Shown here: positions 3,080-64,000 of the stretch, piece by piece
How positions within the stretch are numbered: the first letter of the stretch is position 1
How the letters are laid out: every line of letters starts with the position of its first letter
Origin: Mycobacterium florentinum
GTDB taxonomy: Bacteria > Actinomycetota > Actinomycetes > Mycobacteriales > Mycobacteriaceae
DNA length: 64,000 bases
Assembly (NCBI RefSeq): GCF_010730355.1
Contig: NZ_AP022576.1
Location: 6,138,001-6,202,000, forward strand
Reading direction: 5' to 3'
Translations under genes and position numbers: made by a program
The notes under the pieces: generated by a model
Told to the model about the DNA's origin: nothing
Databases searched by the model: none
What the model saw: only the letters and a program-made list of their open reading frames with translations

Positions 3080-3148
3080 CACCCTCACGGTCCAGCGGAA
3101 CTGATTGAACGCCAGGTGATCTCCACCTGGTGGCTGATGATTGCGCCC

Positions 3149-3220
3149 CATGAGGCCTTGACTCATCCTCATGAGGCCGCAACAATCAGATCTTACAACA
3201 GATGCAACTCTGTATAATCA
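3149..3220 (+). promoter_or_regulatory. Promoter with consensus -10 (TATAAT), direct and inverted repeats
   Basis: TATAAT at 3213-3218, preceded directly by TG, sits 23 nt before the GTG at 3241. Upstream are two copies of CATGAGGCC (3149-3157 and 3171-3179) and the small palindrome ACAGA-TGCAAC-TCTGT (3198-3213) abutting the -10, a possible operator. A -10 here argues against the ATG at 3202 as start of the next gene. Confidence 0.5.
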
Positions 3221-3240
3221 AGTTCCGCGGGAATGGACCA

Positions 3241-4149: not shown

Positions 4150-4159
4150 GGAGCAGACG

Positions 4160-5290
4160 ATGTCTCAGTGCAATGCGCGATTCAACGAGATCGCCGCGAC
4201 GCTAGGTCATTTCACGTGCACGGATGCACCCGCGGTCATCCACATCCGCAACCCGTTCGCATTGTCGAACCCGACGATGCCCGTGCTGGAACTGATGATG
4301 GTCGGCGGTGCGGGGCTCGCACTGTGGTGGGCGATACGACGGCTGCGGCGCCACAACGACCCTACCAACCTGGTGCTGTGGTTCGCGTCCATCGTGTACC
4401 TGCTCGTCACCGAGATTCCGCTGTACTTTCCCAACCTGTTCATGGTCGAAGATCAGATCGGCGTGGTCTTCGACCACAACGTCTTCACCGTCCAGTTCCT
4501 GTATGAACGTCTGCCGCTGTACATCGTCGCGCTCTACCCTGCGGTCACCACGCTGGCATTCGAAATCGTCCGCACCCTAGGGGTTTTCCGTTCGCGTGGC
4601 ATTCTGGCTGGTTCGCTCTGCGTCGGCCTGGTGCACCAGTGTTTCTACGAAGTCTTCGATCAGTTGGGTCCGCAACTGCGGTGGTGGGCCTGGAACACCG
4701 AGAACCCGCTCAATCGGCCGATGTTCGCGTCGGTGCCGATGACGAGTGTGTACATCTTCGCCACCCTCGGCCCGGCCGTGCTCACCCTGCTGGTGATGCT
4801 GCTGGTCGGCCGCAAGGTCGCAAATGGCACACGTATGAGCGCGGCAAGCCTGTTGTGGCGCACCGTCGCCGCGGGGTTACTGGTCACCGTGGGACTCGCG
4901 CTGCTGAGCATCCCGTCCTCCATTTTCGGTGGCAGCCACCCGAACACGACCGCCCAGGCCGTTGTCTTCGTTGTCGAGCTTGCCGCCTTCGCGGTGTTCG
5001 CTATTCCGGCCTTGATCGGTGCGCGTCGGCGCGGCGAGGCCGACGACAAACCGAACCGATTCGTGCGGATCTTCGGGTCGATCTATCTGGGCGTGCTCGG
5101 AATACTGTGGCTCACAGCCCTTCCCGAGTATTTCGCCGCGAAGGGCGGCATCACCGGCCACGGCACCCCGACCGGAAACCTGCTGTACGCCGTGCTGTGC
5201 TTCACGCTGGCGGTGCTGTGGGTCGCGCTGGCCGGCACCGCGACGGTGTCACGCGACGTGGCTACGACGAACTTGCGGCAGCCGGCTTGA
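4160..5290 (+). CDS. Polytopic membrane protein, unknown function
   Basis: 376 aa with about eight predicted hydrophobic segments, for example residues 42-58, 75-90, 118-136, 147-165, 198-218, 235-255, 270-290 and 310-325. GGGAG stands 7 nt before ATG 4160, and the gene starts 10 nt after the metal-dependent hydrolase stop, suggesting an operon. It has the flavour of the AveC-type membrane family encoded at 16.6-17.4 kb (aromatic loops, YFPNLF), but I cannot assign it firmly. Its 3' end overlaps the convergent sulfotransferase gene by 29 nt. Confidence 0.7.
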   Translation: MSQCNARFNEIAATLGHFTCTDAPAVIHIRNPFALSNPTMPVLELMMVGGAGLALWWAIRRLRRHNDPTNLVLWFASIVYLLVTEIPLYFPNLFMVEDQIGVVFDHNVFTVQFLYERLPLYIVALYPAVTTLAFEIVRTLGVFRSRGILAGSLCVGLVHQCFYEVFDQLGPQLRWWAWNTENPLNRPMFASVPMTSVYIFATLGPAVLTLLVMLLVGRKVANGTRMSAASLLWRTVAAGLLVTVGLALLSIPSSIFGGSHPNTTAQAVVFVVELAAFAVFAIPALIGARRRGEADDKPNRFVRIFGSIYLGVLGILWLTALPEYFAAKGGITGHGTPTGNLLYAVLCFTLAVLWVALAGTATVSRDVATTNLRQPA

Positions 5291-6518
5291 CGAACCGCTC
5301 GACATACGGGGCGAAACGGCGACGCAGGTCGTCCTTGTCGAGCCCCAGGTCCTCCGGGTGGTACTCGACGCGGCCCAGCCTGCCGCGCTCGTGGCCGGCC
5401 ATGTACCGTGCCACAGCCCTTCTCGACTCCTCGGACGGTGAGTAGCCGGCCGTGTCCCAGACCCGCTGCGCCATCGCCAGGTCGTCGGCCATGAACTCGT
5501 CGAAGCGGACGTCGATGGTGCGGTCGGCGGGCAGCCGATCATGGTCGCGCATGCACGCGGTGAGCAGCTCGTCGATGCGGGTGATCCAGTACTCGGCCAC
5601 CGTGTTCACATCGACCTCATCGACGCTCATCCGCATGGTGTAGGTCATCATCGTGGCCATCGACACCGCGACATCGACGGGGTCGCGGTGGGTGACGATG
5701 AACGTTGCATCGGGAAATACGTTGAGGATTGGGATGAACTGCTCGAGATGCTGGGGCGACTTGAGCACCCAACGGCGCTCGTATCCGTCTTGGTGTTGCA
5801 GTACCTGCAGCATCATGCGCAGAAACTGGTAGCCGGGGGTCTGATCGTGCTCGCGCAGGTAGTCCGACCAGCGCGGCAGATGGGTGAGCGTGGTGAAGAA
5901 GCCGCTCGAAAAATCTTGGACCATCAGGCCGATGTCTTCGTGAATGTGATCGATCGTCATCTCATGCATCAGCGTGAAGTACGGCATCAGCGTGTTGGAG
6001 ATGTTGAGCGCGTCGGCGGTGCGCTGGCGGCGGGGTTCGATGGTGCCTTCCTCGCCGGGCCCGGGCAGTGGTTCCTGGGCTTCCCAGTACGGAAGCGACC
6101 GCAGCGCGGGGTCGGCGGCCAACAGGCTGTGCAGGTGAGTGGTCCCGGTGCGCGGCAGGCCGGCGATGACCAGGGGCGCTTTGATGCTGACGTCGAAGAT
6201 CTCGGGGTGGCGCTTGAGATGGTCGATGACGCGCAGTCTGCCCGTGAGGAAGGTCAGCATCAGCGAGAAAGCGTAGGTGCGGCCGAACGGGGTCAGCCGC
6301 GGCAACTCGTGGAACGCCTCGAGCAGCACCGCCATCCGCTCGCGGTAGTCCTGCTCGCCGAAGTCGGTCAAGCCGGTCTGCGCGGTGGCTTGCTCGTGCA
6401 GGGCGTCGGTGGTCAGCGGACAGTAATCGGCCATCGCGGCCATGCCGTCGATGATCGCCTGGGCTTCGGGCGTGAATGTCGGCTTGGCGAGATCGGTGAT
6501 ATGGATAGCGTCGCTCAC
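5262..6518 (-). CDS. PAPS-dependent sulfotransferase
   Basis: 418 aa. The 5'-phosphosulfate loop GLPRTGTTHLHSLL (residues 120-133) and the 3'-phosphate-binding segment VTHRDPVDVAVSMA identify the mycobacterial Stf-like sulfotransferase family (PF13469 type), which transfers sulfate from PAPS to lipids or other hydroxyls. An N-terminal helical extension of about 110 residues is usual for this group. Start is GTG 6518. The acceptor is unknown. The gene is divergent from a DUF1214 gene and overlaps the convergent membrane-protein gene at its 3' end. Confidence 0.88.
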   Translation of the reverse strand: MSDAIHITDLAKPTFTPEAQAIIDGMAAMADYCPLTTDALHEQATAQTGLTDFGEQDYRERMAVLLEAFHELPRLTPFGRTYAFSLMLTFLTGRLRVIDHLKRHPEIFDVSIKAPLVIAGLPRTGTTHLHSLLAADPALRSLPYWEAQEPLPGPGEEGTIEPRRQRTADALNISNTLMPYFTLMHEMTIDHIHEDIGLMVQDFSSGFFTTLTHLPRWSDYLREHDQTPGYQFLRMMLQVLQHQDGYERRWVLKSPQHLEQFIPILNVFPDATFIVTHRDPVDVAVSMATMMTYTMRMSVDEVDVNTVAEYWITRIDELLTACMRDHDRLPADRTIDVRFDEFMADDLAMAQRVWDTAGYSPSEESRRAVARYMAGHERGRLGRVEYHPEDLGLDKDDLRRRFAPYVERFVKPAAASSS

Positions 6519-45418: not shown

Positions 45419-45488
45419 GTATCCGACAGTGGCCCTGCTTTGACCGCCGGTCAAGGACTTGACGTGGCGCGGTGGCATGCTTCTGTGC

Positions 45489-46821
45489 ATGGCGACCGTC
45501 CCCGAAACGGTCTACGCGCGAGACGGCGATGCCCATCTCGCCTATCAGGTCGTGTCCGAAAACGGTCCGGATCTGATGTTCGTCCCCACCGGCACGTTCC
45601 CGATCGACTTGCTGTGGGAGGAGCCGACCGTCGCCGGGCACCTGCGTCGGCTGGGGTCGTTCAGCCGGCTGATCATGACCGACCTGTTGGGGGTGGGCAG
45701 CTCGGATCCGGTGCCGATCCATGACCGTCCGGCGATGCAGGCGTGGACGGACGGGCTGGTCGCGGTGCTCGACGCCGTCGGCAGCGAGTGCGCGACCGTC
45801 TTCGGGATGTCCGAGTCGGCGCTTCCGGTGATGCTGCTGGCCGCGAGCCATCCGCACCGGGTGCGGTCCTTGGTGTTGTGCAGCGCGTACCCGCGGTTCC
45901 TGCGGGCCGACGACTATCCGCACGGGATGTCCGAACCGGCCTTCAGCCGGTATGTCGATTCGTTCGGCGACACCGTCGGCAGGGGTGGGGTGGCGGATAA
46001 CTTGGGGCCCAGTTTTGCCCGCGATCCCGGCAAGCGGCGCTGGTGGGCGCGCGGCGAGCGGTTGTCCGGTGGGCCCGGATATTTCAAGGAGATCTTCGAT
46101 CTCTTCCTGCGCACCGACGTTCGGCCCGCGGTGGAAAGCATTCAGGCGCCGACGCTGCTGCTGCATCGCAGCGGCGACCGGCATACGAGGGTCGGCCACG
46201 GTCGGTACCTCGCCGAGCGGATCCCGCAGGCGCGGTTGGTGGAGCTCGACGGCGACGACGATGTGTGGTTCGCCGGTGACGCCGATCGCGTGATCGACGA
46301 GATCGAATCCTTCGTCACCGGGGGTCGTGCGGCCGCGCCGACCGACCGGGTGCTGTCGACGGTGATGTTCACCGACATCGTCGGGTCGACCGAACGCGCT
46401 GAGGCGCTGGGCGATGACGCGTGGTCGGCCGAGCTGGATGCGCACAACGAGATCGTTCGCAAGCACGTCGTGAGCGCGCGGGGTGAGGTCGTGAAGTTCA
46501 CCGGCGACGGCGCGTTGGCGACGTTTGACGGGCCGGCGCGAGCTATCAACTGCGCGTGCGCGATTCGCGACTCGGTACAAGACCTCGGGCTCACTGTCCG
46601 CGCCGGTCTGCACACCGGCGAGGTAGAGATGGGTGACGGCCGTGCACGGGATCGCGGTTCACGTCGCGGCGCGCATCATGGCGATGGCGGGGCCGGGGGA
46701 GGTGTTCGTGTCCGGCGTGGTGCCGCCGTTGGTGCTCGGATCACGGATTGCGTTTGACAGCCGCGGGACGCACGAACTGCGGGGCGTGCGGGGTCGCTGG
46801 CCGGTGCTGGCGGTGGTCTAG
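45489..46821 (+). pseudogene. Alpha/beta hydrolase - class III adenylate cyclase fusion, frameshifted
   Basis: An N-terminal alpha/beta hydrolase-like domain (Ser in FGMSESALPVML) is fused to a class III cyclase domain starting STVMFTDIVGSTERAEAL with VKFTGDGALATF. After GLHTGEVEMGD the frame is lost near 46637; the rest (HGIAVHVAARIMAM ... GTHELRGV) continues in the +1 frame to 46821. Removing one G from GACGGCC restores a family-like GDAVHGIAVHVAAR. So a single-base insertion disrupts it, or it is a sequencing error. Confidence 0.82.
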
Positions 46822-48568: not shown

Positions 48569-48995
48569 TTTGTTCGTTCCTAAAAAAGATGTGTGTGTAG
48601 CGCGGTTGCTTCGCGCAGGCTGGCTACGAATTCATTCTCCGTTTGGGTAGTGACGGCTGACGGGTGCGCATTAAGCAGGATTGTCGACTCTCGGGTTATC
48701 GTGCCGAGACATCGCTACTCCTACGTGAAGATGGGGAGTGCCATTCTGCCGAGATACCTGCTGAACTTTGCATAAGCGCCTCGGCATACGGGCTGCATTG
48801 CTACCTACCGTTGGAAGGCAGCTAATTCGGCGGCGGGCTCGACCGACGAGCGGGTTGCAATACACCCCGAAGTGACCCCATTCGGGGCTACTAATCGGTA
48901 TCTTGCTCATGGGCCGGGGTGCCAACCACGAACGGGCGACGCGGTAGCCACCAGCTGGCCTGTCCAATGATCACGTGGGTATGGAGAGGGCTTCG
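48569..48995. other. Non-coding left flank of the defence island
   Basis: 427 bp without a convincing gene. It holds GCGCG-7 nt-CGCGC (48600-48616) just past the glyoxalase gene and CCCCGAA-9 nt-TTCGGGG (48865-48887). Base composition becomes less GC-rich. No tRNA, integrase or clear att repeat is seen. The promoter of the Z1 operon must lie here, but no strong -35/-10 stands out. Confidence 0.5.
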
Positions 48996-49256
48996 ATGGC
49001 GCTCATCACCAGCTTTAGATTTCGTACTGACCGAACTATCAGCTTCAAGACGAAGGTCGAATGTGGCTGGACGTACGATCGATCCGTCGGTTCCTACCGG
49101 CTTCTCCAGCTCGAGACCTATGCCTCCGACGGCACGACAAGTCAGGTGCTTCAGATGGATGGGGATCGGGCCGCCGAGCTCTTGAGAATTGTCGAAGAAG
49201 TGTTCCCAGGTCTAGCGAAGGCTACGCTCTCGTGCGGGGTCGGCGACGGGCAGTGA
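48996..49256 (+). CDS. Small protein at the head of the Z1 operon
   Basis: 86 aa from ATG 48996 with GAGAGGG upstream. Sequence: ALITSFRFRTDRTISFKTKV, CGWTYDRSVGSYRLLQLETY, then AAELLRIVEEVFPGLA. A compact beta-rich domain with a C-terminal helix; I recall similar small proteins beside Z1 operons but know no function. Its TGA overlaps the Z1 GTG (GTGA), so it is the first gene of the coupled run. Confidence 0.7.
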   Translation: MALITSFRFRTDRTISFKTKVECGWTYDRSVGSYRLLQLETYASDGTTSQVLQMDGDRAAELLRIVEEVFPGLAKATLSCGVGDGQ

Positions 49257-51925
49257 CGGACACGATGCAAACGACTGATTTGGACACTCTCGCTGCTGAG
49301 GATCCGTACGTGAGGCAGCTTGCCCGAATCATCCGCGATAGCCCATCGTCGACGCTCGATGACGCGGTCGCAGAGCTGGCCCAAATCGGCGACATCGCCA
49401 AGATCAACGAGGCTGCTGCACGCATACGTAAACTCAGCGACCTCATAAAGAATGCGCAAGTCCCAACTTCTGTTGTCGCCGGCAATATCGAGACGTGGTA
49501 CCCAGGCCCTCGCGAGGAAGACCGGAATTGGTCCGCACTTGTCGAGATTCTGCGCGCTGACGGCTGGGATGACGAGATGTTGAACGACTTGAATAACTCG
49601 TCAACGAAGGTCGTGGCGAATCTGCCAAACCCTGCCGGTCGGGGCGAGTATCACTGTCGTGGACTGGTCCTCGGGTACGTGCAGAGCGGCAAGACCACCA
49701 ACTTCACTGCGGTGATCGCGAAGGCTGCGGACGCTGGCTACCGGCTTTTCATCATTCTTTCCGGAATTCACGATGCATTACGCCAGCAAACGCAAGACCG
49801 CCTTAACGAACAGCTCTGGGAGCCTCACAGCAATATTTGGCACCGCTTAACCGACGACGAAGACTTTAGGCCGACGGCCAACGTCGACGCGCTGCTATCT
49901 ATTCAGCGCCAATGCGTGCTCGCGGTCGTCAAGAAGAATGGGGCACGGCTTCGTGCCCTCAAAAATTGGTTGTTTGGCGCCCGGCCGGAGGTCCTAGCGG
50001 CGTGTCCTGTGTTGATTATTGATGATGAGGCCGACCAGGCCACAGTTAACACTTCGAAGCCCGATCGGCAACCAACTCGGATCAACGGCCTGATACGCGA
50101 GATCGTCAACAAGGTCCCAAAATCGGCGTACGTGGGATATACGGCCACGCCGTTCGCAAACGTTCTTATCGACCCGACTGACTACGAGGATCTCTACCCA
50201 CGCGATTTCATCGTCGACCTTCCTCGACCGCTTCCATACATCGGCCCCGAAGCAATATTCGGCCGCGAAACGCTTGACTTCGACGACATGGATGTCGGCG
50301 ACGATGGGAACAATTTCATCCGCACGGTACCAGAGGATGAACTCGATGATCTCCGGCCCAAGGGCGCTGCGAAGCGCTACCAATTCGAACCACGGATCAC
50401 AGACAGCCTCGACGCGGCATTGCGGTACTTTCTGATGAGCACCGCAGCTAGGCGGCTGCGCGGCAAAGGGAATCGGCATGCCACGGCCCTAGTCCACACC
50501 TCCCAACACATCGATGTTCACGAGCGGACAGCACAGGCGATTACTGAGCACCTTGTTTCACTGCGCGCGCGGTTATCCCGCAGAGACACTGTGCTTTTGG
50601 AGTCGCTCGAGCGCCAATGGGCTGATGAGTGTGCGGAGGTTCCCGCGTCCAATTTTCTGCATGAGGCCGTGGCGTGGTCGGAGCTCGTAGAAGCGTTGCC
50701 AGCGGTTGCTGGTGATGCCAAAGTCATTACTGATAACTCTCGAAGCGTCGAAAGGCTATCCTTCGATGACTCGAACCCGCGCGTACTCATCGCTGTCGGG
50801 GGCAACACACTTTCACGAGGGCTGACTCTCGAGGGCTTGGCGGTCTCCTTCTTCGTTCGTAGCGCCTCCGCTTACGACACCCTGTTGCAGATGGGGCGTT
50901 GGTTCGGATATCGCAACGGGTATGCCGATCTGACCCGCATCTGGATGACAGACGAGATGCGGGCCTGGTTCCATCATTTGGCGACGGTGGAACAGGAAAT
51001 TCGTTACGACGTAGAGAGATTGGAGGTCGAACACCTGACTCCAGAGCAGTTTGGTGTACGCATCCGTACCCACCCAACCCTCGCGATTACCTCAGCTGCC
51101 AAGATGCAGCACGCAAAGACGGCACAAGCCTCGTACGCGGGACGTCGGTTGCAGACAATTCTCTTCAATCACAAAGACGTCGAATGGCTTGGGGACAACG
51201 TCAGGGCAGCACGCGACCTTGTCTTTTCGGCGGCATCACTGCCGCGGTGGCACCCGAGACATGGGATCACCATCTTCGAGGGCATCGATTCACAGAATGT
51301 AGTGAGCTTTCTTTCGGCATATCACTTCCACGAGAACAGCCGAGACCTTGACAGCCAGTTGATAAGCCTCTATATCCTGGACCGCTGCGCGGAAGGTGAA
51401 CTGCTGCGATTCAACGTCGCGGTGATGGGACGCAGTTCAGACTCGGAGTATCTCGGCGCAGTCGATCTAGGCGTCGAGGGCACCGAGACCGGTTGCATAA
51501 ACCGTGCTAGGTTACAGCAAATCGGCGGTGCGACCTATGCAGATATTAAGGCCCTCATGAGTCGCAATGATCGGGTTATCGATCTGAGGCTTCCTGATGG
51601 AACGCTGACCGCGGATACGAAACCTGCTGACCTGTCTAGGTTTCGGAACACGCCGGATAGCGGGGGTTACGGCGACGGGTCTGGCCTCATCCTCTTGTAT
51701 CCGGTTTCGAAAGACAGCCGCCCAGTGCGTGGTTCTGTTAAGACACGCGAACCTCTGCACGCGGCAATGCACGTCATCGGTGTAGGGCTCGTATTTCCGG
51801 AGAGCAGTAACAGCAGAGCCAACGTCGAATACCTCACTGCGGATGTCGCGTCAATGCTCGATATCGAAGTTGAAGTGCCAGACGACTCCGATGAACCTGT
51901 TGAGGCTGAAGTAGAGCCGGCGTGA
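49253..51925 (+). CDS. Z1-domain protein with SF2 helicase-like motor
   Basis: 890 aa from GTG 49253. Walker A GYVQSGKT (141-148), Walker B LIIDDEAD (254-261), motif III-like GYTATPFAN (295-303), motif V GGNTLSRGLTLEGL and motif VI QMGRWFGYR. The C-terminal Z1 region follows (ITSAAKMQHAKTAQASY on) and ends acidic. Z1 proteins occur with GHKL ATPases in restriction-like operons and in the Mza anti-phage system; they are thought to act on DNA. Overlaps both neighbours by 4 nt. Confidence 0.88.
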   Translation: MTDTMQTTDLDTLAAEDPYVRQLARIIRDSPSSTLDDAVAELAQIGDIAKINEAAARIRKLSDLIKNAQVPTSVVAGNIETWYPGPREEDRNWSALVEILRADGWDDEMLNDLNNSSTKVVANLPNPAGRGEYHCRGLVLGYVQSGKTTNFTAVIAKAADAGYRLFIILSGIHDALRQQTQDRLNEQLWEPHSNIWHRLTDDEDFRPTANVDALLSIQRQCVLAVVKKNGARLRALKNWLFGARPEVLAACPVLIIDDEADQATVNTSKPDRQPTRINGLIREIVNKVPKSAYVGYTATPFANVLIDPTDYEDLYPRDFIVDLPRPLPYIGPEAIFGRETLDFDDMDVGDDGNNFIRTVPEDELDDLRPKGAAKRYQFEPRITDSLDAALRYFLMSTAARRLRGKGNRHATALVHTSQHIDVHERTAQAITEHLVSLRARLSRRDTVLLESLERQWADECAEVPASNFLHEAVAWSELVEALPAVAGDAKVITDNSRSVERLSFDDSNPRVLIAVGGNTLSRGLTLEGLAVSFFVRSASAYDTLLQMGRWFGYRNGYADLTRIWMTDEMRAWFHHLATVEQEIRYDVERLEVEHLTPEQFGVRIRTHPTLAITSAAKMQHAKTAQASYAGRRLQTILFNHKDVEWLGDNVRAARDLVFSAASLPRWHPRHGITIFEGIDSQNVVSFLSAYHFHENSRDLDSQLISLYILDRCAEGELLRFNVAVMGRSSDSEYLGAVDLGVEGTETGCINRARLQQIGGATYADIKALMSRNDRVIDLRLPDGTLTADTKPADLSRFRNTPDSGGYGDGSGLILLYPVSKDSRPVRGSVKTREPLHAAMHVIGVGLVFPESSNSRANVEYLTADVASMLDIEVEVPDDSDEPVEAEVEPA

Positions 51926-52917
51926 TCGACGAAGTCAGACTCGCATTCAGCGCCCTGACCACGCATGGTGCGCCCAGTCCCACAGGACTTGCGGTCCTGC
52001 CCGTCAAATGCGGAGAAGGTGTGCTCGTTGGCCTCGACGATCAGTCGCGCCAGCACCTTTTACTAGCGACGAACGCCGGAATCGGTAAGACGCCGAATGT
52101 TACGACCCTCTCATTCACGACTAGAAGCCTTGTTATCGAAGGCCGAAGCGCCCTGTTCTTGGACATCACGTGCCTGTTCGCAGCGCTTTCGGAGGTTTTT
52201 GATCATTTCGCGGCAGCGGTGATCGAACGGATATCAGTTGGTGGTGAGGTGCCTGGGCTAGCGGTCGAGCATGTTGTTAACGGTTGGCGCGAGTTCCTCG
52301 TTCCTCCAACCGGTCCGCCGAGCCGGGACAAGTTAGCGGCAACCCTCGGAGAGCTGCTCGTTGTTCGAGATGCGATCAAAACCGGACGGAATCCTGATAT
52401 CGGTTCTTGGGTGGGTCCTTTCGGTCAACGGCATGACTTTCGAAGCGGACCAACGGCTATCGAGGTCAAGACGATACGTTCGCACTCTGGGTACCGCATA
52501 ACAATCCACGGGGAGGACCAGATGTTGCCTCCTGACGGGGGCACCCTACATCTGCATCTGGTGCGGCTCGAGGAAGTCCACGGGGGGAGCACAAGCGTAT
52601 CTGCCGTCGTCGATGAACTTCTGGCAGCAGGAGTTTCAGCGCAAAAGCTATTTTCTGCACTGATGGCTAATGGCGTCGCGGCCGCAGACCTACCAGATAC
52701 CGATAACGTGACATTCGAGGTTCGAGAGCGGGTGACTCTGCCGGTTGATGATCGCACCCCACGAATTGTGCCTGAGACGTTCGTTGGGGGTAAGCGTCCG
52801 AATGGCGTAGTGGACGTGAGCTATGTCGTCGATTTGGCCAGTGCGCTTGGTAATTCGCTCGCGCCAGTCGAGTACCAAGCACTCGTGGCCTCGCTAACCT
52901 TAGGAACCGCGACGTGA
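51922..52917 (+). CDS. PD-(D/E)XK nuclease, DUF4420-like
   Basis: 331 aa from GTG 51922. Nuclease core: Glu144 in LGELLVVRD, Asp172 in GQRHDFRSG and Glu181-Val-Lys183 in AIEVKTIRS, matching the E-D-ExK pattern. DUF4420-type proteins are partners of Z1 and GHKL proteins. Probably the DNA-cutting subunit. GTGA overlaps at both ends. Confidence 0.85.
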   Translation: MIDEVRLAFSALTTHGAPSPTGLAVLPVKCGEGVLVGLDDQSRQHLLLATNAGIGKTPNVTTLSFTTRSLVIEGRSALFLDITCLFAALSEVFDHFAAAVIERISVGGEVPGLAVEHVVNGWREFLVPPTGPPSRDKLAATLGELLVVRDAIKTGRNPDIGSWVGPFGQRHDFRSGPTAIEVKTIRSHSGYRITIHGEDQMLPPDGGTLHLHLVRLEEVHGGSTSVSAVVDELLAAGVSAQKLFSALMANGVAAADLPDTDNVTFEVRERVTLPVDDRTPRIVPETFVGGKRPNGVVDVSYVVDLASALGNSLAPVEYQALVASLTLGTAT

Positions 52918-54908
52918 TTAGGCTTCAGCGATACTCGGAACCGTACAATGCGACGGGCGGCTTGGCGGCGATCGGCATCCTAAACCAACTTGGGCGTCCT
53001 GACACAGAACCGCTAGAAGTGCTGATTCGCGAGGCCGTTCAGAATTGCTGGGACGCGAAGCGGCCCGATTCACAAGGCATCCGTGTTGAAATCGGCCGCT
53101 CGACGCTCGACAGTGAAATGGTCACCCGATTGCGAGACAACGTGCTCGTGGATCCGCCCCCTGGTCTTGCTCTTGCGAAAGAACTTCGCGATGGCATGTG
53201 CACTCTGTATGTCGCCGACTTCGGCACGCACGGTCTTGCCGGGCCGACTCGAGCGGACCGACAGGGCGAGCCGCGTGACTTCGTCGATTTCGTCCGCAAT
53301 ATTGGTCAGCCGCCCGACAAGGACTTCGGGGGTGGGTCTTTTGGCTACGGAAAAGCCGCCTTTTATATCGCAAGCACAGCTAGGACGGTCGTGATCGATA
53401 GCCTGTGCGAAGTGGCCTCCGGGAAGTTTGAGCGCAGGTTACTTGGTTGCGCTCTTGGTGACACATTTGATGTCAATGGCGTTCCGTACACCGGCAGGCA
53501 TTGGTGGGGCCGCATGGTCAACGGAGCGCCAGAGCCCGTCACCGGCGACGAGGCCGACGAGATCGCCGACTTGCTTGGCCTCCCCGCCAGGGCTGGTGCA
53601 GATGGCAGAGGAACTACGGTCCTCGTTGTGGCGCCCTCCGTCCACATCGAGACGGATGACGGCGTCGACGCCACGATGGACTTTATCGCCGAGGCAATCG
53701 CTTGGAACTTCTGGCCCAGGATGATCGACACTTTGGGCGGCGCAAGGCGAACCATGGAGTTCGTACTTCGCGACAACGGCAAGCCTATTCGGATACCCAA
53801 CCCGCGATCACATCAGCGCTTGCGTGGGTTTGTCGAGGCGATGGACCGTCATCGCCAGGAACCCACAGATGATGTCGACGACCTGACCATTGACACCGAG
53901 ATTCGCAGCCTTCGCCCAGTGAGACGGCTGGGCCGCTTGACCATACAAAAAGGTCCGGTAGCACCTGCGGATTTGGCTGACCGACCTGTTCCCCGAGGGG
54001 CCCGGATAACCGCGACTAGTGTCCACCACGTGGCGCTTATGCGAACCCCCGAATTGGTCGTGAATTACTTCGCCGGCGCGGCGCCGGCCAGCGGCAGGCT
54101 GGGTTATTCGGGCGTGTTTAAGTGCGCGCTCGATGTTGACGATATGTTCAAAGCTGCCGAGCCTCCGACCCATGATGACTGGATCTATCGAGCTGTGCAG
54201 GATCGGCAGTGGAGATCGTTCGTGAAGATCGCGTTGGAACGCGTCGAGCGCCATTGCCGGCTCGCGGCTGGCTACGATGCTTCGGTACAGCAACTGCGAG
54301 AATCAGACGCAATTCCGCTTGGCGAGTTCGCAGATGCGCTTGCGGCACTTATGCCCGGCCAAGATGGGCCGGGGGCTAGAAGACAAGGGCCCAAGCGCGA
54401 TACCAAATCCGGAACCCGCCGCCGGGCGCCAGGTCGAAGGGTTGTCGACAAAGTCACCGAAGACGCGTGGGTCGACGCCACCACGTCGCGGAACGCTGAA
54501 CAAAACGCTGGTAACACCGGGGATCACAGCGGGCGAGACTCGGCAACGCGGCAGCGGCCGCGGCCTCTGCCACCGCCTCAGACTCGGGTCGCAGGTGACC
54601 CTAGTCCCGTAATCTCCTTGGACGGCACGCCCGTCATCGCATACCCATTTGAATTGCGCACCAAAGGGAATCGTGTCCGACTGACCGCAGACGTAGAGAT
54701 CATGACCAACGATGGTGCGCTCGTCGAGCTAGAACCCCCTATCGGATACGTGAGGCCTACCGTGCATTGCTGGGTCGACCCTTCTGGATCGCGTTATGCA
54801 GCAGCTGAATTGACGGTCGGTCCTGATGGCGTCGACGGTGAGTGGGCGGTCGAGATTGAGCTCAGAGACGAAATGATGAGAGTGGACTTGGCAGTGGAGG
54901 CGATTTGA
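52914..54908 (+). CDS. GHKL ATPase, MORC/MutL-like
   Basis: 664 aa from GTG 52914. N box LIREAVQNCWDAK (Glu40, Asn44, Asp47), G1 VADFGTHGL (Asp102), G2 GGGSFGYGKAAF (139-150), G3-like GTTVLVVAP. A middle domain follows, then a low-complexity basic/Pro linker (about 485-560) and a C-terminal beta-rich domain. ATP-driven dimerisation on DNA is the family behaviour. Coupled by 4-nt overlaps to the nuclease gene upstream and the next gene downstream. Confidence 0.87.
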   Translation: MIRLQRYSEPYNATGGLAAIGILNQLGRPDTEPLEVLIREAVQNCWDAKRPDSQGIRVEIGRSTLDSEMVTRLRDNVLVDPPPGLALAKELRDGMCTLYVADFGTHGLAGPTRADRQGEPRDFVDFVRNIGQPPDKDFGGGSFGYGKAAFYIASTARTVVIDSLCEVASGKFERRLLGCALGDTFDVNGVPYTGRHWWGRMVNGAPEPVTGDEADEIADLLGLPARAGADGRGTTVLVVAPSVHIETDDGVDATMDFIAEAIAWNFWPRMIDTLGGARRTMEFVLRDNGKPIRIPNPRSHQRLRGFVEAMDRHRQEPTDDVDDLTIDTEIRSLRPVRRLGRLTIQKGPVAPADLADRPVPRGARITATSVHHVALMRTPELVVNYFAGAAPASGRLGYSGVFKCALDVDDMFKAAEPPTHDDWIYRAVQDRQWRSFVKIALERVERHCRLAAGYDASVQQLRESDAIPLGEFADALAALMPGQDGPGARRQGPKRDTKSGTRRRAPGRRVVDKVTEDAWVDATTSRNAEQNAGNTGDHSGRDSATRQRPRPLPPPQTRVAGDPSPVISLDGTPVIAYPFELRTKGNRVRLTADVEIMTNDGALVELEPPIGYVRPTVHCWVDPSGSRYAAAELTVGPDGVDGEWAVEIELRDEMMRVDLAVEAI

Positions 54909-55798
54909 AGACTGCGGGAGCCACCCCATATTTGTTGCCGCCGGACTCGGTAATGGTCACTCAACCTTGGTGTGTTGCCGATGGCGTAGAAATCGGTGAC
55001 CGAGTTGATCATTGGGATCCCTTTACGGATCTTCAACTAGTGCGCGTCGTAGAGGTGGACCTCGAGGGTGTGCGCGACGCTTGCGCGTTGCCAAATGACG
55101 CAGCATTTGCGATCGCCACGACGTGGTCCTCGAACAGAACTCGGACCACGGGCGACGGACCCGTGGTCGAGCTGGGATCTCTGCGCGGACTGGCGCGAAC
55201 TGCTTTAACACTCTGTGTACCTGGGGCCTTGTCTGGAGGTCGATTGGCCCTGCGGACGCGATTGGTTCTACGCAGCCCCGGTAGGGCCCCGTCGCCAATC
55301 TCTCCCCGCCGGTTCGGTGCAATCCTGTGGGAGGAGGAGACGCAGATCTTGCTCGAAGGTGGGGCGGCGCGATTCCCAATCACGGCAGCCGATTTCAAGG
55401 CACTGCCTAACTATCCAGACAATGCGGCTTGGGTACTGGACTGGGATCCCGATGAACTCGAAGCGCCGGTGCTGGGCGGTATGCGACTCATCGTCAACAG
55501 CAGCCACGAAGTGATGCCCGAGCTGCTGCGCTCAGGCAGCTCAGACCCAAGAGCCGGGCTCTTAAGGTCGTTCGTAACGTTCGATGTTGCTAGATCGCTT
55601 ATTGCTGGCGCGTTGCGTAACGATCGTTTCGTGGACGAACCAGAGGCTTTCGACGACGGCACTGTAGGCCGGATGCTGTTCGAGCTCATTTCGATGTGCT
55701 GGCCGGGCATGCAACTGCCAGCCCTCCAGTCGCGCAGTCTTCAGGATTCAGCCCGGCTGTTTGCCGAGTTGCAAGCAAGGTTCGGAGTAGTCGGGTGA
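54905..55798 (+). CDS. Unknown protein in the Z1 operon
   Basis: 297 aa from TTG 54905 (TTGA overlap with the GHKL stop). Mixed alpha/beta: GDRVDHWDPFTDLQLVRVVEVD, FGAILWEEETQILLEGG, then a helical end (SRSLQDSARLFAELQARF). A Trp/Asp patch AAWVLDWDPDEL is near residue 175. I recognise no catalytic motif. Its fixed position between the GHKL and DUF6339-like genes suggests it is a structural or specificity subunit. Confidence 0.6.
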   Translation: MKTAGATPYLLPPDSVMVTQPWCVADGVEIGDRVDHWDPFTDLQLVRVVEVDLEGVRDACALPNDAAFAIATTWSSNRTRTTGDGPVVELGSLRGLARTALTLCVPGALSGGRLALRTRLVLRSPGRAPSPISPRRFGAILWEEETQILLEGGAARFPITAADFKALPNYPDNAAWVLDWDPDELEAPVLGGMRLIVNSSHEVMPELLRSGSSDPRAGLLRSFVTFDVARSLIAGALRNDRFVDEPEAFDDGTVGRMLFELISMCWPGMQLPALQSRSLQDSARLFAELQARFGVVG

Positions 55799-57003
55799 TC
55801 GTCCTTCCGCGCATCGACAGACAGACTGCGCTTGAGCTACTTAATAGCCACCTAAGCGAAGACTTGCTCGAAATCAGCAGTCGCATGCCCGACCAAACTC
55901 CGGTTGTCACGTTCACCCCAGTAGGGGGTTTGCGGATTGACGACCAGCAACTTATCGATCTCCGCAAGGAGGTGGTGGAACTCGCCTGTCGGTACGGGAT
56001 GCCGGGCCGGATTACCAGCCTTTCTGTGTTCGAGGGACGTTTAGCTCGCCTGCTGCACGAGCGTATTCCGATGTCTCTCAACGAGGCTTCACATGAAGAA
56101 GTGTGGAGCTACCTGACCTGCTGCTGGCTCCTCGACATAGCAGTCTGGAGATTCGGCAAAGACGCTGATGCGCGTAGGTTCATCGGTGATGTTAACCGCA
56201 ATACATTTAGGCGGCTCTGGTGGAGGGCCGCAATTATGGGTCCTCAGGTGGATCTCACTCGTCTAGGTGAAGATGAGCTAGTGAACATTACTGAGCGCCC
56301 CACAATCGCAAGCGATCACAGGCTGGCACGCACGGTTGCGTTCGAGTTTCTGGATCGCGTTGACCGCGGTGAGGCCGAACCACGCATGCTGCTGATGCGT
56401 GACGCTATGAAAAGATTGCTCCGCCTGACGCCGTTTATTTCCTTTGCAGCACTGCGCGATAACGAGGTTCGTGAGGTCGTTGAGGATTGCTTCGACGCAG
56501 CAGCTCTAGCTCTCTCGCGCGAGTCCGGAGATACCGGTGGGCGTCACCGCAGCTTGTCGAAAGTCGAAGCTAGGGGCGCGCACCGCGACGTGCCGCCAGT
56601 TAGCCCCGGCGTCGTCGCGATTGAACGAATGACGATGACAGAAGACGAACCCGCGAAAAATCCTTCTTCTACGGGTGTGACGCCGGATTTCGAGAATGTT
56701 GCGCAGACAGCATTGGGGATTGCCCGTCGGGTGGGTAGCGTCACGAACAGCAATTTGCGAGAGATAGTGCCGATTACGTCAGGTGAGGCAAGGGAGGTAC
56801 TGCAAACGCTGATGAAGGAAGGGCTGCTGGCGCGGCGGGGTGTGAGACGTGGAACTTACTATGTGTTGGCGGAGTCGGCGGCCACCCCGGACACGGCTTG
56901 GCCCCCGCAAACACCAACGGAAACAACTGAACTCGGAGAAATGGATGTCAGTGCTGCGAGCAGTGAATCCGCCTTGCGCCGACTCCTTCGCAGAGTCAAG
57001 TGA
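55795..57003 (+). CDS. DUF6339-like protein with C-terminal winged helix
   Basis: 402 aa from GTG 55795 (GTGA overlap). Residues 60-250 contain VWSYLTCCWLLDIAVWRFG, RFIGDVNRNTFRRLWWRA and ITERPTIASDHRLAR, the DUF6339 hallmarks. After a Thr/Pro linker, residues 310-360 (IARRVGSVTNSNLREIV...EVLQTLMKEGLL) form a winged helix for DNA binding. Stands where AIPR occurs in Mza-type loci. Last gene of the coupled run. Confidence 0.75.
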   Translation: MIVLPRIDRQTALELLNSHLSEDLLEISSRMPDQTPVVTFTPVGGLRIDDQQLIDLRKEVVELACRYGMPGRITSLSVFEGRLARLLHERIPMSLNEASHEEVWSYLTCCWLLDIAVWRFGKDADARRFIGDVNRNTFRRLWWRAAIMGPQVDLTRLGEDELVNITERPTIASDHRLARTVAFEFLDRVDRGEAEPRMLLMRDAMKRLLRLTPFISFAALRDNEVREVVEDCFDAAALALSRESGDTGGRHRSLSKVEARGAHRDVPPVSPGVVAIERMTMTEDEPAKNPSSTGVTPDFENVAQTALGIARRVGSVTNSNLREIVPITSGEAREVLQTLMKEGLLARRGVRRGTYYVLAESAATPDTAWPPQTPTETTELGEMDVSAASSESALRRLLRRVK

Positions 57004-57055
57004 AGATCAAAATTTCCGTGGCGGTAGGCGTCGCTCCGACGATAAAGGATAGTTA

Positions 57056-57562
57056 ATGGGTTCGCAGGAAGCGCCGCGAGCAGCCGACTCGTCGCCTCCA
57101 CCGCTCAGCGAGAGCGTCCGCCGCCAGATGAGCGCAATGCCCACGAGAGACACCGGCACAGAGATGGCTCTCCGGAGAGAGCTTCACAGGCGGGGGTTGC
57201 GTTTCCGTGTGCAAGTCCGAACACTTCCTGGGCGGCCCGACGTCGCCTTCACGCGTGCGCGGATAGCGGTGTTCGTCGACGGCTGCTTCTGGCATCGCTG
57301 TCCCTCACACGGCACCTCACCAAAAAACAATGCGGAGTGGTGGGCCGCGAAGCTTGAGGCGAACGTGATCAGAGACAAAAAGAAAGACGAGATGCTGCGG
57401 TGTCTCGGCTGGCTACCCATCCACATTTGGGAACACGAAGACCCTGGCGAGGCTGCCGAGGCGATTCACAATCTTTGGCGAATGCGGGTCCATCCTCCGA
57501 AAGATATGGTGGATGGGTCCGCTAATGCGTGTTCGTGGAACGACATCCAGCGGCCCGAGTGA
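57056..57562 (+). CDS. Very short patch repair (Vsr) endonuclease
   Basis: 168 aa; AAGGA precedes ATG 57056, a later start near residue 25 is possible. Vsr core: MSAMPTRDTGTEMALRRELH (Glu36), LPGRPDVAF (Asp62), VFVDGCFWHRCP (His80) and NAEWWAAKLEANVIRDKK. Nicks beside T:G mismatches made by deamination of 5-methylcytosine. Paired with the C5 methyltransferase that follows. About 50 nt after the DUF6339-like gene. Confidence 0.92.
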   Translation: MGSQEAPRAADSSPPPLSESVRRQMSAMPTRDTGTEMALRRELHRRGLRFRVQVRTLPGRPDVAFTRARIAVFVDGCFWHRCPSHGTSPKNNAEWWAAKLEANVIRDKKKDEMLRCLGWLPIHIWEHEDPGEAAEAIHNLWRMRVHPPKDMVDGSANACSWNDIQRPE

Positions 57563-57654
57563 CTGGGCACCTTCGACGTGGGCGGACCACCGCGGCTTCG
57601 GCGCGCAACGGCGCGCCTCAGTACTGTGTCGCCCCCCTCACTTAATCTGGCTGT

Positions 57655-59598
57655 ATGACCGCGCGCCAAGTGACGACTTCTGGATCGTCGTATGCGGTTA
57701 AGCAGATTCGTGGGCCGTTCGTCGAGCTTGATCCGCACCCATGCCACACGCGTTCGGATACGGATCTCGCCGCGCTCTGCACCGATCTGCGGGCTCACGG
57801 TGTGCCGTTGGTGGCAGACCTGTTCAGTGGAGCCGGTGGTATGAGTCTCGGTTTCGAGGAAGCCGGTTTCAGGGTGGTTTTGGGGGTCGACCACTATGGC
57901 TTTGCAGTGGAGACGCATCGGCATCATTTCGCCGGGATGTCGTTGGACGACGACCTAGCGGACCCAGCAATGATTGAGCGGGTCGCAAAGCTGTTAAAGC
58001 GCAACAAAATCGACGTCCTAACCGGCGGCCCGCCGTGCCAGCCGTTTTCTAGGGCGGGACGGTCGATGATTCGGCACCGCGTTTTGACGGGCGTAGCCGA
58101 TCCGCATGACGAACGTCGTGACCTGTGGCGGTCCTTCTTGGAAGTTGTTCAGTTGGCACGCCCTCGGGCAGTAGTCATGGAGAACGTTCCTGATATGGCG
58201 CTAGACCGCGAAATGTTCATCTTGCGCAGCATGACCGAGGAACTCGAACAAATCGGTTATTCGGTCTCCGCGCGCGTGATAGATAGTTGGCGCTTCGGCG
58301 TACCCCAAATGCGGCAGCGCTTGCTATTGGTCGCCCTCAAAAGCCGCATCCGTTTCACTTGGCCGGCAGAATCAGAGAAGCGGGTTACTTTGTGGAACGC
58401 TATTGGTGATATGCCTGAAGTCGAAGGTGGATGGCGTCCGGCCGGCGGAGCTTTCGGATGGGCGAATTACGTTGGGCCTCGTACTGAATACCAAACGTGG
58501 ATGCGACGAAACGTCTCGGCGGCAGATGCCTGCAAACTATTCGACCACATTACTAGGCCCGTTCGCGAGGATGACCGTGCCGCATTTGAATCTATGACCC
58601 ACAAGACGAAGTACACGGACTTAGCGCCCGAGTACCAGCGCTATCGCAAAGATATCTTTGATGACAAGTACAAGAAGCTCGATGAGAACGATCTTTCTCG
58701 CACAATAACAGCACACATTGCGAAAGACGGTTATTGGTATATCCACCCCAGACAGCCGCGTACACTCACGGTCCGTGAGGCCGCTCGGATTCAAACTTTT
58801 CCGGATGATTTTCGTTTTGCTGGGCCACCGTCGGCAGCTTTCAAGCAGATCGGTAACGCGGTCCCACCCCTAGTCGGAGAGGTGATTGCTAAGGCGGTAA
58901 GGACTTCACTGGCGTCAGGAACGAAGGCTGGGCTTTCCACTCGAGAGACTTCCGGGAAGTTGGCACGTTGGTTTCAACAACAGTCTTCCATCGCTGCGAT
59001 CCCGTGGTTCAAGACTGGGAACCGTTGGAAGTTCCTTCTAGCCGAACTTCTTCTTGACCGCGCGACGCCGACTGTCATGAACGCGGTGTGGCCGATCATC
59101 GACAAGCGGCACGACATCCGCCCTGGAGAGTTGCCCGATGACGAGGCGGTCGATCTCCTCGACGAACTCATGTCGGGAGTGGGCCGCGGCCAGCGGATTT
59201 CGGCGGTGCGTCAGCTTGTTGCGCAGTTGTCTGCTGCCCCAAATGCGTTGTGGGAGCCAACAATCGACCGCACAGTACTCTCGGTCATACCGTCTGCAGT
59301 GGCGGACTTACTGGAGCTCGCTTTGCCAATCAGCCACGAAGGGCGAGATAGCGAGGAGCCTGTACTAATCACTAAGGGTGTTTTGCGCGTCACCAGCCGG
59401 TTCCAAGGCAACGACGCCGACAAGAGAAATGTGCAGACTGATGGGCGCATCGCGGTGGCCAGCATGATCGGCTTCGGCGACGATTCGCGGCCTGCGCACT
59501 TGGGGCTTATCGCGTTGGCGGCTGACATTTGTCTGGTGGAAAAGCCGCTGTGCGGCGATTGTCCCCTAAGCAGGTGGTGCGCGGCAGCCGGCGGTTAG
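57655..59598 (+). CDS. C5-cytosine DNA methyltransferase fused to an EndoIII-like FeS domain
   Basis: 647 aa. Methyltransferase motifs: I DLFSGAGGMSLGF (55-67), IV GGPPCQPFS with catalytic Cys128, VI MENVPD (Glu176), VIII RQRLLLVA, X QIGNAVPP (398-405). Residues 440-647 resemble EndoIII/MutY glycosylases and end in Cys626-x6-Cys633-x2-Cys636-x5-Cys642, the exact [4Fe-4S] pattern. The GVG hairpin and catalytic Asp seem absent (VIPSAVA, PVLITKGVLRV), so the domain may only bind DNA. ATG 57655, probably leaderless. The recognition site is unknown. Confidence 0.9.
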   Translation: MTARQVTTSGSSYAVKQIRGPFVELDPHPCHTRSDTDLAALCTDLRAHGVPLVADLFSGAGGMSLGFEEAGFRVVLGVDHYGFAVETHRHHFAGMSLDDDLADPAMIERVAKLLKRNKIDVLTGGPPCQPFSRAGRSMIRHRVLTGVADPHDERRDLWRSFLEVVQLARPRAVVMENVPDMALDREMFILRSMTEELEQIGYSVSARVIDSWRFGVPQMRQRLLLVALKSRIRFTWPAESEKRVTLWNAIGDMPEVEGGWRPAGGAFGWANYVGPRTEYQTWMRRNVSAADACKLFDHITRPVREDDRAAFESMTHKTKYTDLAPEYQRYRKDIFDDKYKKLDENDLSRTITAHIAKDGYWYIHPRQPRTLTVREAARIQTFPDDFRFAGPPSAAFKQIGNAVPPLVGEVIAKAVRTSLASGTKAGLSTRETSGKLARWFQQQSSIAAIPWFKTGNRWKFLLAELLLDRATPTVMNAVWPIIDKRHDIRPGELPDDEAVDLLDELMSGVGRGQRISAVRQLVAQLSAAPNALWEPTIDRTVLSVIPSAVADLLELALPISHEGRDSEEPVLITKGVLRVTSRFQGNDADKRNVQTDGRIAVASMIGFGDDSRPAHLGLIALAADICLVEKPLCGDCPLSRWCAAAGG

Positions 59599-60880
59599 AA
59601 ACCTAGCCCCCGGGCAAGCTCGGGGTGTTGGTCTTGCATGAAGGCCATTACCTTCTTGAAGGCTTCGTAGTGACCTGACTGAATTGCCGCTGATTTAAGC
59701 GCTAACCCGATCTCCGGCAGCGAGCCGGTGGCTGGTGCTTTGTCGTCGTTCTCAGTCCCGTCGTCAAGGTCGTCAGTTGTGTCCGCGTTGTGGCGGCGGT
59801 AAACACGGTCGGCAAGAATGCATAACTCACTGACGGGTCGCTCCAACATCTGTTTGAGCTGGGCAGGTACCGACACCCGCATCTTTGCGACATTGATATT
59901 GAAAACCTCATCAAGACTGCTCGTGAAGTCGAGACTCGCGCGGGCCAGCTTTGTGTGTTCGTCGATGCCACGGGTACCCGCCCAGCTACCCCATTGCACC
60001 AGCCGGTTCTCCCGATACACATAGAGGCCCTGCTGCCGGTTCCAATTGAGCGGTCCGGCCGCGTTCTCGAATGCGTCGGGAGAGCTAAATGTTCTTTTCC
60101 CAGGGGAGGATGTAGCGACGGAGCTCGACTGCTCCAACCCCCCGTTGCGCTCTCCAACTCGAACTGCTGGGTCGACAGTTGCTGCGTCCCCGGTTCGTGG
60201 CGAACGAATGGGTCCCACGCTAAGAGCTTGTCACCATTGACGCTGATAGAAATCCTGGGAGCGTTGTTCTCGCCGGTTATGAACCGGTGGAACACCATCG
60301 CCAAGTGACGCTTGGTCTTCTCGACCAGCACCTCGAAACGTCGCTTAGCCCACCCGCCGGCGGCACCAGAAGCGGGAAGTACGCGGTCCAGATTCTGCCA
60401 TACGACGACGGTGCCCGTCCCTGTGCCGAGCAACTCTTCGCTCCTAGCGACAGCATGATCGCGTGGGTTCTCGGCAAGGACCCAATCGTCCAGCTCGGCA
60501 ATGAGATCCAAATCCAGCGATCTCCACAGCGGACGTTTGCGATCGGCTGATCTAGAGACAACAGTCACGCAACGAGCTTGGGACAGCGATGCCGTCTTAA
60601 GTCCAAGTCCGTATCGCCCAAGGTCGCCCGAACCGTAGGTGCGGCGGCTACCGAAGCGGAGGGCCTCAAGCATGCCCCGCGCGTTCAGGCCAGCACCATT
60701 GTCGGCAACATAGACGGTGGAGGCCTGACCAGCGAACTCGATTTCGACTCCCACATCGGTCGCGCCGGCGGCGATACTGTTGTCTATAAGGTCGGCAACC
60801 GCGCTGACGAAATCGTACCCAATGTCCCGCAACGACGATGTGAGCCGAGCGGCCGATGGCGCGGCATTGGAAAGTTTCAT
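59595..60880 (-). pseudogene. Second GHKL ATPase, disrupted by two frameshifts
   Basis: Reads intact from ATG 60880: AVADLIDNSIAAGATD (N box), VADNGAGLN (G1), GRYGLGLKTASL (G2). At the six-base G-run (60138-60143 region) the frame shifts to VELRRYILPWEKN, and at the A-run about 45 nt further it shifts again to FSSPDAFENAAGPLNWNRQQ, continuing to 59595. One base fewer in each run restores a continuous protein of about 428 aa. Convergent with the methyltransferase, stops overlapping by 4 nt. Real decay or homopolymer sequencing errors cannot be told apart here. Confidence 0.82.
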
Positions 60881-61043
60881 CGATTCAAGGCTCCAGGTTC
60901 CGTCCTGACGTTGGCCTTAAGTTAAACAGCAGGCACAGACAATATCGGACCGACTCGCGCGGCACACCCCAACTTTCGGCGTCTGCTGCGTACCGGGATT
61001 TGCCGTAGCGCAGACCACGGCGCCAAGGCCCGATCGGCGCTCC

Positions 61044-61757
61044 ATGTCAAGTCTCGCAAGTTCTAAGAGTAGAAATGCAGGGCCGTCGGTTACGTTCATC
61101 GCTGTGGAAGCCAACGACCGAGCGCACGCCTTCGTACAGTGGTTGTCCAGCCTGACGCTACTCACTCGAACGTTCGACGCGTCTAAGGCGTGGCGGGAGC
61201 ACCGCTATCAGTTCGCCTACCGTTTAGGAGAGCTGCTCGCCGGCGCGACCGATACTGCTGGGGCTGTCCAGGGACCAGTTGTTTACGGTATTTGGCTCGA
61301 TTGGGGCTGCCTATATATCGGACAGACGACGGAGGCGTCGCGCCGGCTCCGCGACCTACCTGTTGGCGAAAGTCATCACCTCGCCACAACATTTCCTCCC
61401 GAGATATGGGATCGCGTGGTCGTCGTGGCCTGGCCAGCCTTGCCGGAAGCCGAAGTACTGATGGCCGACTTCGATTCGAACAGGATTGGTCTAGCGCTCG
61501 AGTACCGGCTGCAATCTCGGCTGAAACCATTGGTAAATTCCTGGCGCCGGACACCCAACGGCGGTTGGCGCGCTGTCGACTGGTCTAGAAGTACCTCGGT
61601 GGGAGCCCGCGCAGCAGCGCAGATCGACACGCTGTCAGAACGGCTGGATGAGCTCTTCGACCGCGCATCCACCGATGAGATCGGGGACGCGCCATTGGCA
61701 AGCCATGTACGTTGCGTAAGACCAAGGCGTCTTTTGTATGGTGAGCTGGGTTTGTAG
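61044..61757 (+). CDS. GIY-YIG nuclease-fold protein
   Basis: 237 aa from ATG 61044; GTG near 61104 is an alternative. VYGIWLDWGCLYIGQTTEASRRL carries the GIY...YIG pair (here GIW/YIG), with Arg in RLRDLP, Glu in LALEYRLQSRL and a late Asn (LVNSWRR). An N-terminal helix precedes it. The length and position in the island suggest a restriction or repair nuclease linked to the methyltransferase; this is inference. Last island gene. Confidence 0.7.
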   Translation: MSSLASSKSRNAGPSVTFIAVEANDRAHAFVQWLSSLTLLTRTFDASKAWREHRYQFAYRLGELLAGATDTAGAVQGPVVYGIWLDWGCLYIGQTTEASRRLRDLPVGESHHLATTFPPEIWDRVVVVAWPALPEAEVLMADFDSNRIGLALEYRLQSRLKPLVNSWRRTPNGGWRAVDWSRSTSVGARAAAQIDTLSERLDELFDRASTDEIGDAPLASHVRCVRPRRLLYGELGL

Positions 61758-61792
61758 GTGCTAATAAGTCGGCGCTCGATGAGATGATTTGC

Positions 61793-61828
61793 GTCGCGAC
61801 CCGGTTGGAAGTCGCGACCCGGTTGGAA
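61793..61828. repeat. Perfect 18-bp tandem duplication near the right island edge
   Basis: GTCGCGACCCGGTTGGAA is present twice in succession (61793-61810, 61811-61828). The surrounding 61758-62010 gap has no convincing gene. Each unit contains the palindromic TCGCGA. Confidence 0.8.
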
Positions 61829-62010
61829 ATTGTGAAATCAGGTTCCGATCAAGCGGCACGGCCCGACACATGCCGTGGCTGGGAGCGCGGCTAACCGGCT
61901 GCCTGCTGTTACAGGCTTCGACTCGGGACAAGCTTTCGATGTCGACACCCTGCCTACTCCTCGCCGCTGTGCTGTGATGTTGCTCAGAAGAATCACGTCG
62001 GGAGCATCGG

Positions 62011-63048
62011 GTGGCGCTATCTGAGTACGAGCAAGAACAGCTGACGAAGGTCAACGCGTACAAGCACCGCACCCTGCGGCGCCCGGAACGGCGCCTGCTT
62101 CCCTTCACGGTCGGTGGCCTGGGCTCGGGGGTGGTCAACACGCTGCTGAAGCTGCCGGTACTGCGCGAGGTGAAAAAGCCAGGCGCGGCGGTGCTGGACA
62201 CCGCGGCCGCGGGCGCCGCCAGGTTCATGACCAAGACGGGTCAACTGGCCACGTCGGAGGCGCGCGTCATCGGCGCCTATGCGAAGAAAGGCCACCCGGT
62301 CGAGCATCTCGACGACATCAGGAAGCTCGACCTGCGATCCATCGACGAGGTCGCGTCCTTCGGTCTCCGGCATCGCGCCTACTCGGCATCGGCGGCGGCG
62401 GAAGGCGCGGCGGCCGGCCTGGCCGTCAGCAGCGGTGAGGCGGCGGCAACCGCCGGTGCGGCGGCCACCGCGGGCGCCGCGGCGGGGCCGGGATTGGGCA
62501 CCGTCGCCACGGCGATGGGCGTCGACGCCGCGGCACTGTTGACCGCGTGCAGCGCGGTGGTGGCTCACGATGCTCTCTATTACGGCTACGACCCGCTCGA
62601 CCCCGCCGAAGAGATCTTCATGATGCACGTCATCGCGTTGGGCCTCGCGGAGACGGAACCGGCGAAAGTCGCCGCCTACCAACAGCTTACGTTGTTGACC
62701 GAAAGCCTCGCCCGCAACGCGGCGTGGCAGCAGCTCGACCGGCAGGTGGCCGTCAAGGTCATCCAGAAGTTCGCCGTCAAATTCGCCCAGGACCTGACGC
62801 TGAAAAAGCTGGTGCAGCTGGTACCCGGCCTCGGCGTCGGACTGGGCGCGGCCCTGAACTGGACGACGGTCGGCGAGATCGCCGACGCGGCCTACTGGGC
62901 TTACCGCGAGCGCTTCCTGTACGAAAAGGGCGCCGAATTCGAGCCCATCGCAACCGATATCGAGGGCGCCAAGAACGACGATCGACTATCGCTCGATCTC
63001 GAAGACATCCTCAAGTCGGAAGGCGTCCAGCTCGACGGCGAACGCTAA
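62011..63048 (+). CDS. EcsC-family protein
   Basis: 345 aa from GTG 62011, GGGAGC upstream. Ala/Gly-rich hydrophobic helices in the middle (GVDAAALLTACSAVVAHDAL and the glycine-rich VATAMG stretch) and the EcsC-like LYYGYDPLDPAEEIFMMHVI, QLDRQVAVKVIQKFAVKFAQ and LGAALNWTTVGEIADAAYWAY. Probably membrane-associated; biochemical role unknown. First gene after the island. Confidence 0.82.
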   Translation: MALSEYEQEQLTKVNAYKHRTLRRPERRLLPFTVGGLGSGVVNTLLKLPVLREVKKPGAAVLDTAAAGAARFMTKTGQLATSEARVIGAYAKKGHPVEHLDDIRKLDLRSIDEVASFGLRHRAYSASAAAEGAAAGLAVSSGEAAATAGAAATAGAAAGPGLGTVATAMGVDAAALLTACSAVVAHDALYYGYDPLDPAEEIFMMHVIALGLAETEPAKVAAYQQLTLLTESLARNAAWQQLDRQVAVKVIQKFAVKFAQDLTLKKLVQLVPGLGVGLGAALNWTTVGEIADAAYWAYRERFLYEKGAEFEPIATDIEGAKNDDRLSLDLEDILKSEGVQLDGER

Positions 63049-63112
63049 CCACGGTGACCCGACGGCGCCCACACATTATCGTGACGGTCAAGCAAACAAA
63101 GGACGGGCGCCC

Positions 63113-63583
63113 GTGGACCACATCGCAACAGCGGACGCGATCGCGGCCGCCGCCCACGCCGGCCAGGTCGACAAGGCCGGCATGCCCTACATCGGACACG
63201 TCCGCCGCGTCGCCTCCTACGTCGATCCCGCCAACACCGACGCCGTGGTGGCGGCCCTGCTGCACGACGTCATCGAGGACACCGGCCTCACCGCGGCCGA
63301 CCTGGCCGAGCGCGGCATCCCGCAGGCCGCGATCGACGCGATCGAGCTGCTGACCCGCCGCGACGACCAGCCGTCGGCCGATTACTACCGTCGCATCAGC
63401 GCGCACCCGACCGCCCGGGAAGTCAAGCTCGCGGACCTGGCCGACAACACCGATCCCGAACGGATGGCAAACCTGACCGAGTCCGACCGGGCACGGCTGA
63501 CCCAGAAGTACGCGGGCGCCTACGCCGCGCTCGGCGCCGACTTCGACGACGGGGCCCGGCGCAGAACCCGTGCGGCACAGTGA
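63113..63583 (+). CDS. HD-domain phosphohydrolase, MESH1/SpoT-like
   Basis: 156 aa from GTG 63113. HD motif set: His in AAHAGQVDKAGMPYIGH, His-Asp in LLHDVIEDTGL and Asp in KLADLADNTDPERM. This matches small alarmone or nucleotide hydrolases of the SpoT/MESH1 type needing Mn2+. No synthetase domain, so it would only degrade (p)ppGpp or a related nucleotide. Confidence 0.85.
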   Translation: MDHIATADAIAAAAHAGQVDKAGMPYIGHVRRVASYVDPANTDAVVAALLHDVIEDTGLTAADLAERGIPQAAIDAIELLTRRDDQPSADYYRRISAHPTAREVKLADLADNTDPERMANLTESDRARLTQKYAGAYAALGADFDDGARRRTRAAQ

Positions 63584-63619
63584 AACCCGCCGGTTAGCCG
63601 TCGACGTGAAAGGCAGCCC

Positions 63620-64000
63620 ATGCCAGATCTCAACGAACACACCATTACCGAAGCCGTAAAGAAAACCTTCGACACGTCCACCGACGACCGGTTCAGGCAA
63701 CTGCTCCAAAGCCTGGTTCAGCACCTGCACGACTTCGCCCGCGAGGTGCGGCTGACCGGCGACGAGTGGTTCACCGCAATGGATTTCATCGAACGGCTGG
63801 GCAAAATCTCCAGCCCCACCCGCCAGGAGGTGGTGCTGGCCTCCGACATCCTCGGCCTGTCGATGCTGCTGGACACGATGAACGAGAGCCCCGGCGGCTC
63901 GGCCACCGCCTCGGCGCTGCTGGGCCCGTTCTACGTCGAGGGCCGACCGAGCGCCCCCAACGGCGCCGACATCTCCAACGGCGTCGCGGGCACACCGATG
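63620..64000 (+). CDS. Intradiol ring-cleavage dioxygenase, N-terminal part
   Basis: 127 codons to the window end. N-terminal dioxygenase domain: ITEAVKKTFDTSTDDRFRQLLQSL, FIERLGKISSPTRQEVVLASDILGLS and ATASALLGPFYVEG, as in catechol/hydroxyquinol 1,2-dioxygenases. The Fe(III) ligands lie beyond the window. Cleaves a catechol between its hydroxyls. Confidence 0.87.
   Translation, partial: MPDLNEHTITEAVKKTFDTSTDDRFRQLLQSLVQHLHDFAREVRLTGDEWFTAMDFIERLGKISSPTRQEVVLASDILGLSMLLDTMNESPGGSATASALLGPFYVEGRPSAPNGADISNGVAGTPM

Follow-up and report, generated by a model that had tools for sequence, protein, structure and literature searches.

The window analysed here is a stretch of 64,000 nt from the Mycobacterium florentinum contig NZ_AP022576.1 (GCF_010730355.1, positions 6,138,001-6,202,000), and coordinates are those of the window unless another locus is named. 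It carries a real and conserved cluster of nine genes, including a Z1 helicase-like protein and a DUF4420 nuclease, that is probably defensive. The original prediction flagged six of these genes, chained by 4-nt stop/start overlaps, as an operon. The six genes, their domains and their coupling were confirmed and make up most of the cluster, but three more (Vsr, Dcm and MORC, at 57056-60880) had been overlooked. The nine genes are:

48996..49256 (+), gene 1, an 86-aa protein with no family match; alternative start at 48975; optional member
49253..51925 (+), Z1 helicase-like protein; PF10593, 228 bits
51922..52917 (+), DUF4420 PD-(D/E)XK nuclease; PF14390, 118 bits
52914..54908 (+), paraMORC2-type GHKL ATPase; GHKL boxes and EPPTH (ExxxH); PADLOC PDC-M33A, 47.5 bits, residues 95-161
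54905..55798 (+), g5, no family assigned; predicted Ig-like beta-sandwich, then a helical C-terminus
55795..57003 (+), DUF6339 protein; helical domain linked by a disordered stretch to a winged helix (297-360)
57056..57562 (+), Vsr-family endonuclease; NCBIfam vsr, 121 bits (cut-off 97.85); solved Vsr structures 1cw0/1vsr/1odg
57655..59598 (+), C5-cytosine methyltransferase (Dcm) with a C-terminal tail; PF00145, 196 bits; tail Fe-S, T:G-glycosylase-like
59595..60880 (-), MORC/MzaB-like GHKL ATPase; two overlapping frames in the window copy, both matching MzaB

Helicase, nuclease and the three-gene set

Profile searches bear out both the Z1 domain and the DUF4420-like nuclease of the original prediction. 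The motifs QSGKT, DDEADQ and DTLLQMxRWFG are invariant in the Z1 proteins of 17 aligned loci, and the nuclease residues E144, D172 and E181-V-K183 are invariant in 14/14 proteins. A lack of conserved co-occurrence elsewhere had been named as evidence that would count against the operon; this check leaves the prediction standing, with the core gene order kept in 19 of 22 loci.

The flagged GHKL gene had been read against the MZA system, which Gao and colleagues reportedly described in 2020 as mzaABCDE. It does encode a GHKL ATPase, but one of the paraMORC2 type: the ATP-binding boxes and ExxxH are invariant in all 15 paraMORC2 proteins, and the MORC motif was found in 0/15. The MzaB counterpart is instead the overlooked gene at 59595-60880, which matches MzaB. 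The DUF6339 protein scores 23.2 bits against PF19866, equal to the gathering score of that family and enough to sustain the earlier assignment, and the homologue in L018 reaches 46.1 bits. At L018:10347-12191 a single open reading frame (ORF) fuses DUF6339 to a C5-methyltransferase and is followed by a second C5-methyltransferase gene. DUF6339 had been proposed to take the position of AIPR. The AIPR protein of MZA is indeed absent, with no match among ten scanned window proteins and none to PF10592 anywhere in genome G000, but its substitute is the set of paraMORC2, g5 and DUF6339 rather than DUF6339 alone.

Vsr, the tailed Dcm and a doubled contig end

Vsr is present in 16 of 22 loci (17 if the distant Vsr of L076 is counted), and a C5-methyltransferase lies within the analysed stretch of 17. 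The methyltransferase part of Dcm spans residues 53-415 and the tail about 430-647; a profile of the tail finds its best match in 1kea (E 4.7e-9), a G-T mismatch enzyme. The four cysteines that bind [4Fe-4S] in the EndoIII/MutY/MIG glycosylases are invariant in the Dcm tails (25/25 and 10/10). These glycosylases also use a catalytic Asp, and at its position, placed through the 1kea alignment, the aligned stretch of the tails holds no Asp (25/25 and 10/10).

In the window the MORC gene falls into two pieces, 59702-60880 and 59595-60218, each matching MzaB, while the remaining eight genes are open. The ends of this one-contig assembly overlap untrimmed, window 56928-64000 corresponding to contig start 1-7044 (L074) with 99.59% identity, 0 mismatches and 29 gap columns in 7073. 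Because the copies differ by indels only, we infer an assembly error in both, and reading frames within 56928-64000 must therefore be treated with care. The contig-start copy has MORC as one ORF of 427 aa, so an unsplit copy exists, but in that copy it is Vsr and Dcm that are split. The one-ORF MORC contains the motif GhXhhpXXRhl of the S5 domain; as a regular expression the motif matches 20 of 26 MORC/MzaB proteins, the other six being module members (L002-L006, L009). MORC also matches solved MutL structures. It occurs together with paraMORC2 in one cluster in 12 of 22 loci.

Probable function and flanking genes

The nine-gene cluster is probably an ATP-driven restriction system acting against phages and plasmids, in keeping with the defence and restriction-modification role first proposed, and its extra module is exchangeable and resembles methylation and mismatch repair. 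Unlikely is a modification-dependent or abortive system, in which the core would target foreign-modified DNA or replication and repair intermediates and Dcm/Vsr would serve repair or regulation instead of self-protection; the presence of a C5-methyltransferase in the analysed stretch of 17/22 loci and its fusion to DUF6339 in L018 argue against this. Less probable still is a mutation-avoidance or mismatch-repair cluster in which Vsr, a MORC resembling MutL and a Dcm resembling a T:G glycosylase preserve 5-methylcytosine sites and phage defence is secondary, although the MutL matches, the similarity of the tail to 1kea and the presence of Vsr are consistent with it. That the cluster is a decayed, inactive relic in M. 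florentinum, as the split MORC and split genes in two relatives (DUF4420 in L006, GHKL in L008) might suggest, is very improbable given gap-only differences between the doubled copies, the intact MORC in one of them and eight open genes in the window.

Beyond the cluster, an ORF at 61044-61757 without a Pfam match contains, in our reading, a GIY/YIG-like stretch, and a homologue lies just outside the cluster in L005 (43.6% over residues 15-234). An EcsC-family protein (62011-63048) lies at the island's right edge, and another sits beside the cluster in L005 (L005:2722-3777). The same chromosomal junction in another species (L072, G031, about 2600-6000) carries a Ser/Thr kinase ORF with PD-T4-6 matches, which may reflect the kinase domain only, and a short ORF with an IscB match below cut-off. 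At 45459-46757 the translation reads as an alpha/beta hydrolase fused to a class III nucleotide cyclase domain that is cut short, possibly another frame error.

Relation to known systems

The NCBIfam equivalog cut-offs for MZA are missed by MzaC (402.9 of 1500), MzaD (58.6 of 420) and, with the one-ORF MORC copy, MzaB (248.1 of 850). A general scan of ten window proteins, not a search aimed at sigma factors, gave no MzaA-type sigma domain. Among PADLOC candidates, the PDC-M33A match to paraMORC2 is partial and weak; PDC-M33C matches only three distant DUF6339 homologues (L013, L076 and L077), weakly (16-20 bits), and not the window's own protein. PADLOC models gave 0/32 matches for g5, and none for the g5 proteins of L013, L076 or L077 either.

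Going by section 11 of Miller et al. 2022 (PMC9523054), the core is close to the type I candidate defence system described there, which is likewise associated with a DNA-repair endonuclease (here Vsr), and the three extra genes of type I appear to be paraMORC2, g5 and DUF6339, with indirect support from PDC-M33A and PDC-M33C. MORC belongs there to type II and not type I, whereas the window cluster carries it, and that section makes no mention of the Dcm tail. With the restriction-modification operons reported in PMC2292703 (Iyer, Abhiman and Aravind, 2008), the cluster shares an SF2 helicase (DThhQXuRhFG), a restriction-endonuclease-fold nuclease (E-D-ExK), a C5-methylase, Vsr and a GHKL ATPase, together with the paraMORC2 ExxxH and MORC GhXhhpXXRhl motifs; the word "glycosylase" is absent from the text of that paper. 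That paper places paraMORC2-5 in operons without MORC and regards them as replacements; unlike these operons, the window cluster holds both paraMORC2 and MORC.

The proposed kinship to Mza and to the 2008 operons thus stands, but the claim of a distinct composition fails for the core, which is near both the type I candidate and PDC-M33. Only the added pair of MORC and tailed Dcm sets the cluster apart: the core was predicted in earlier papers, and the compound form with an exchangeable MORC-Dcm pair is new.
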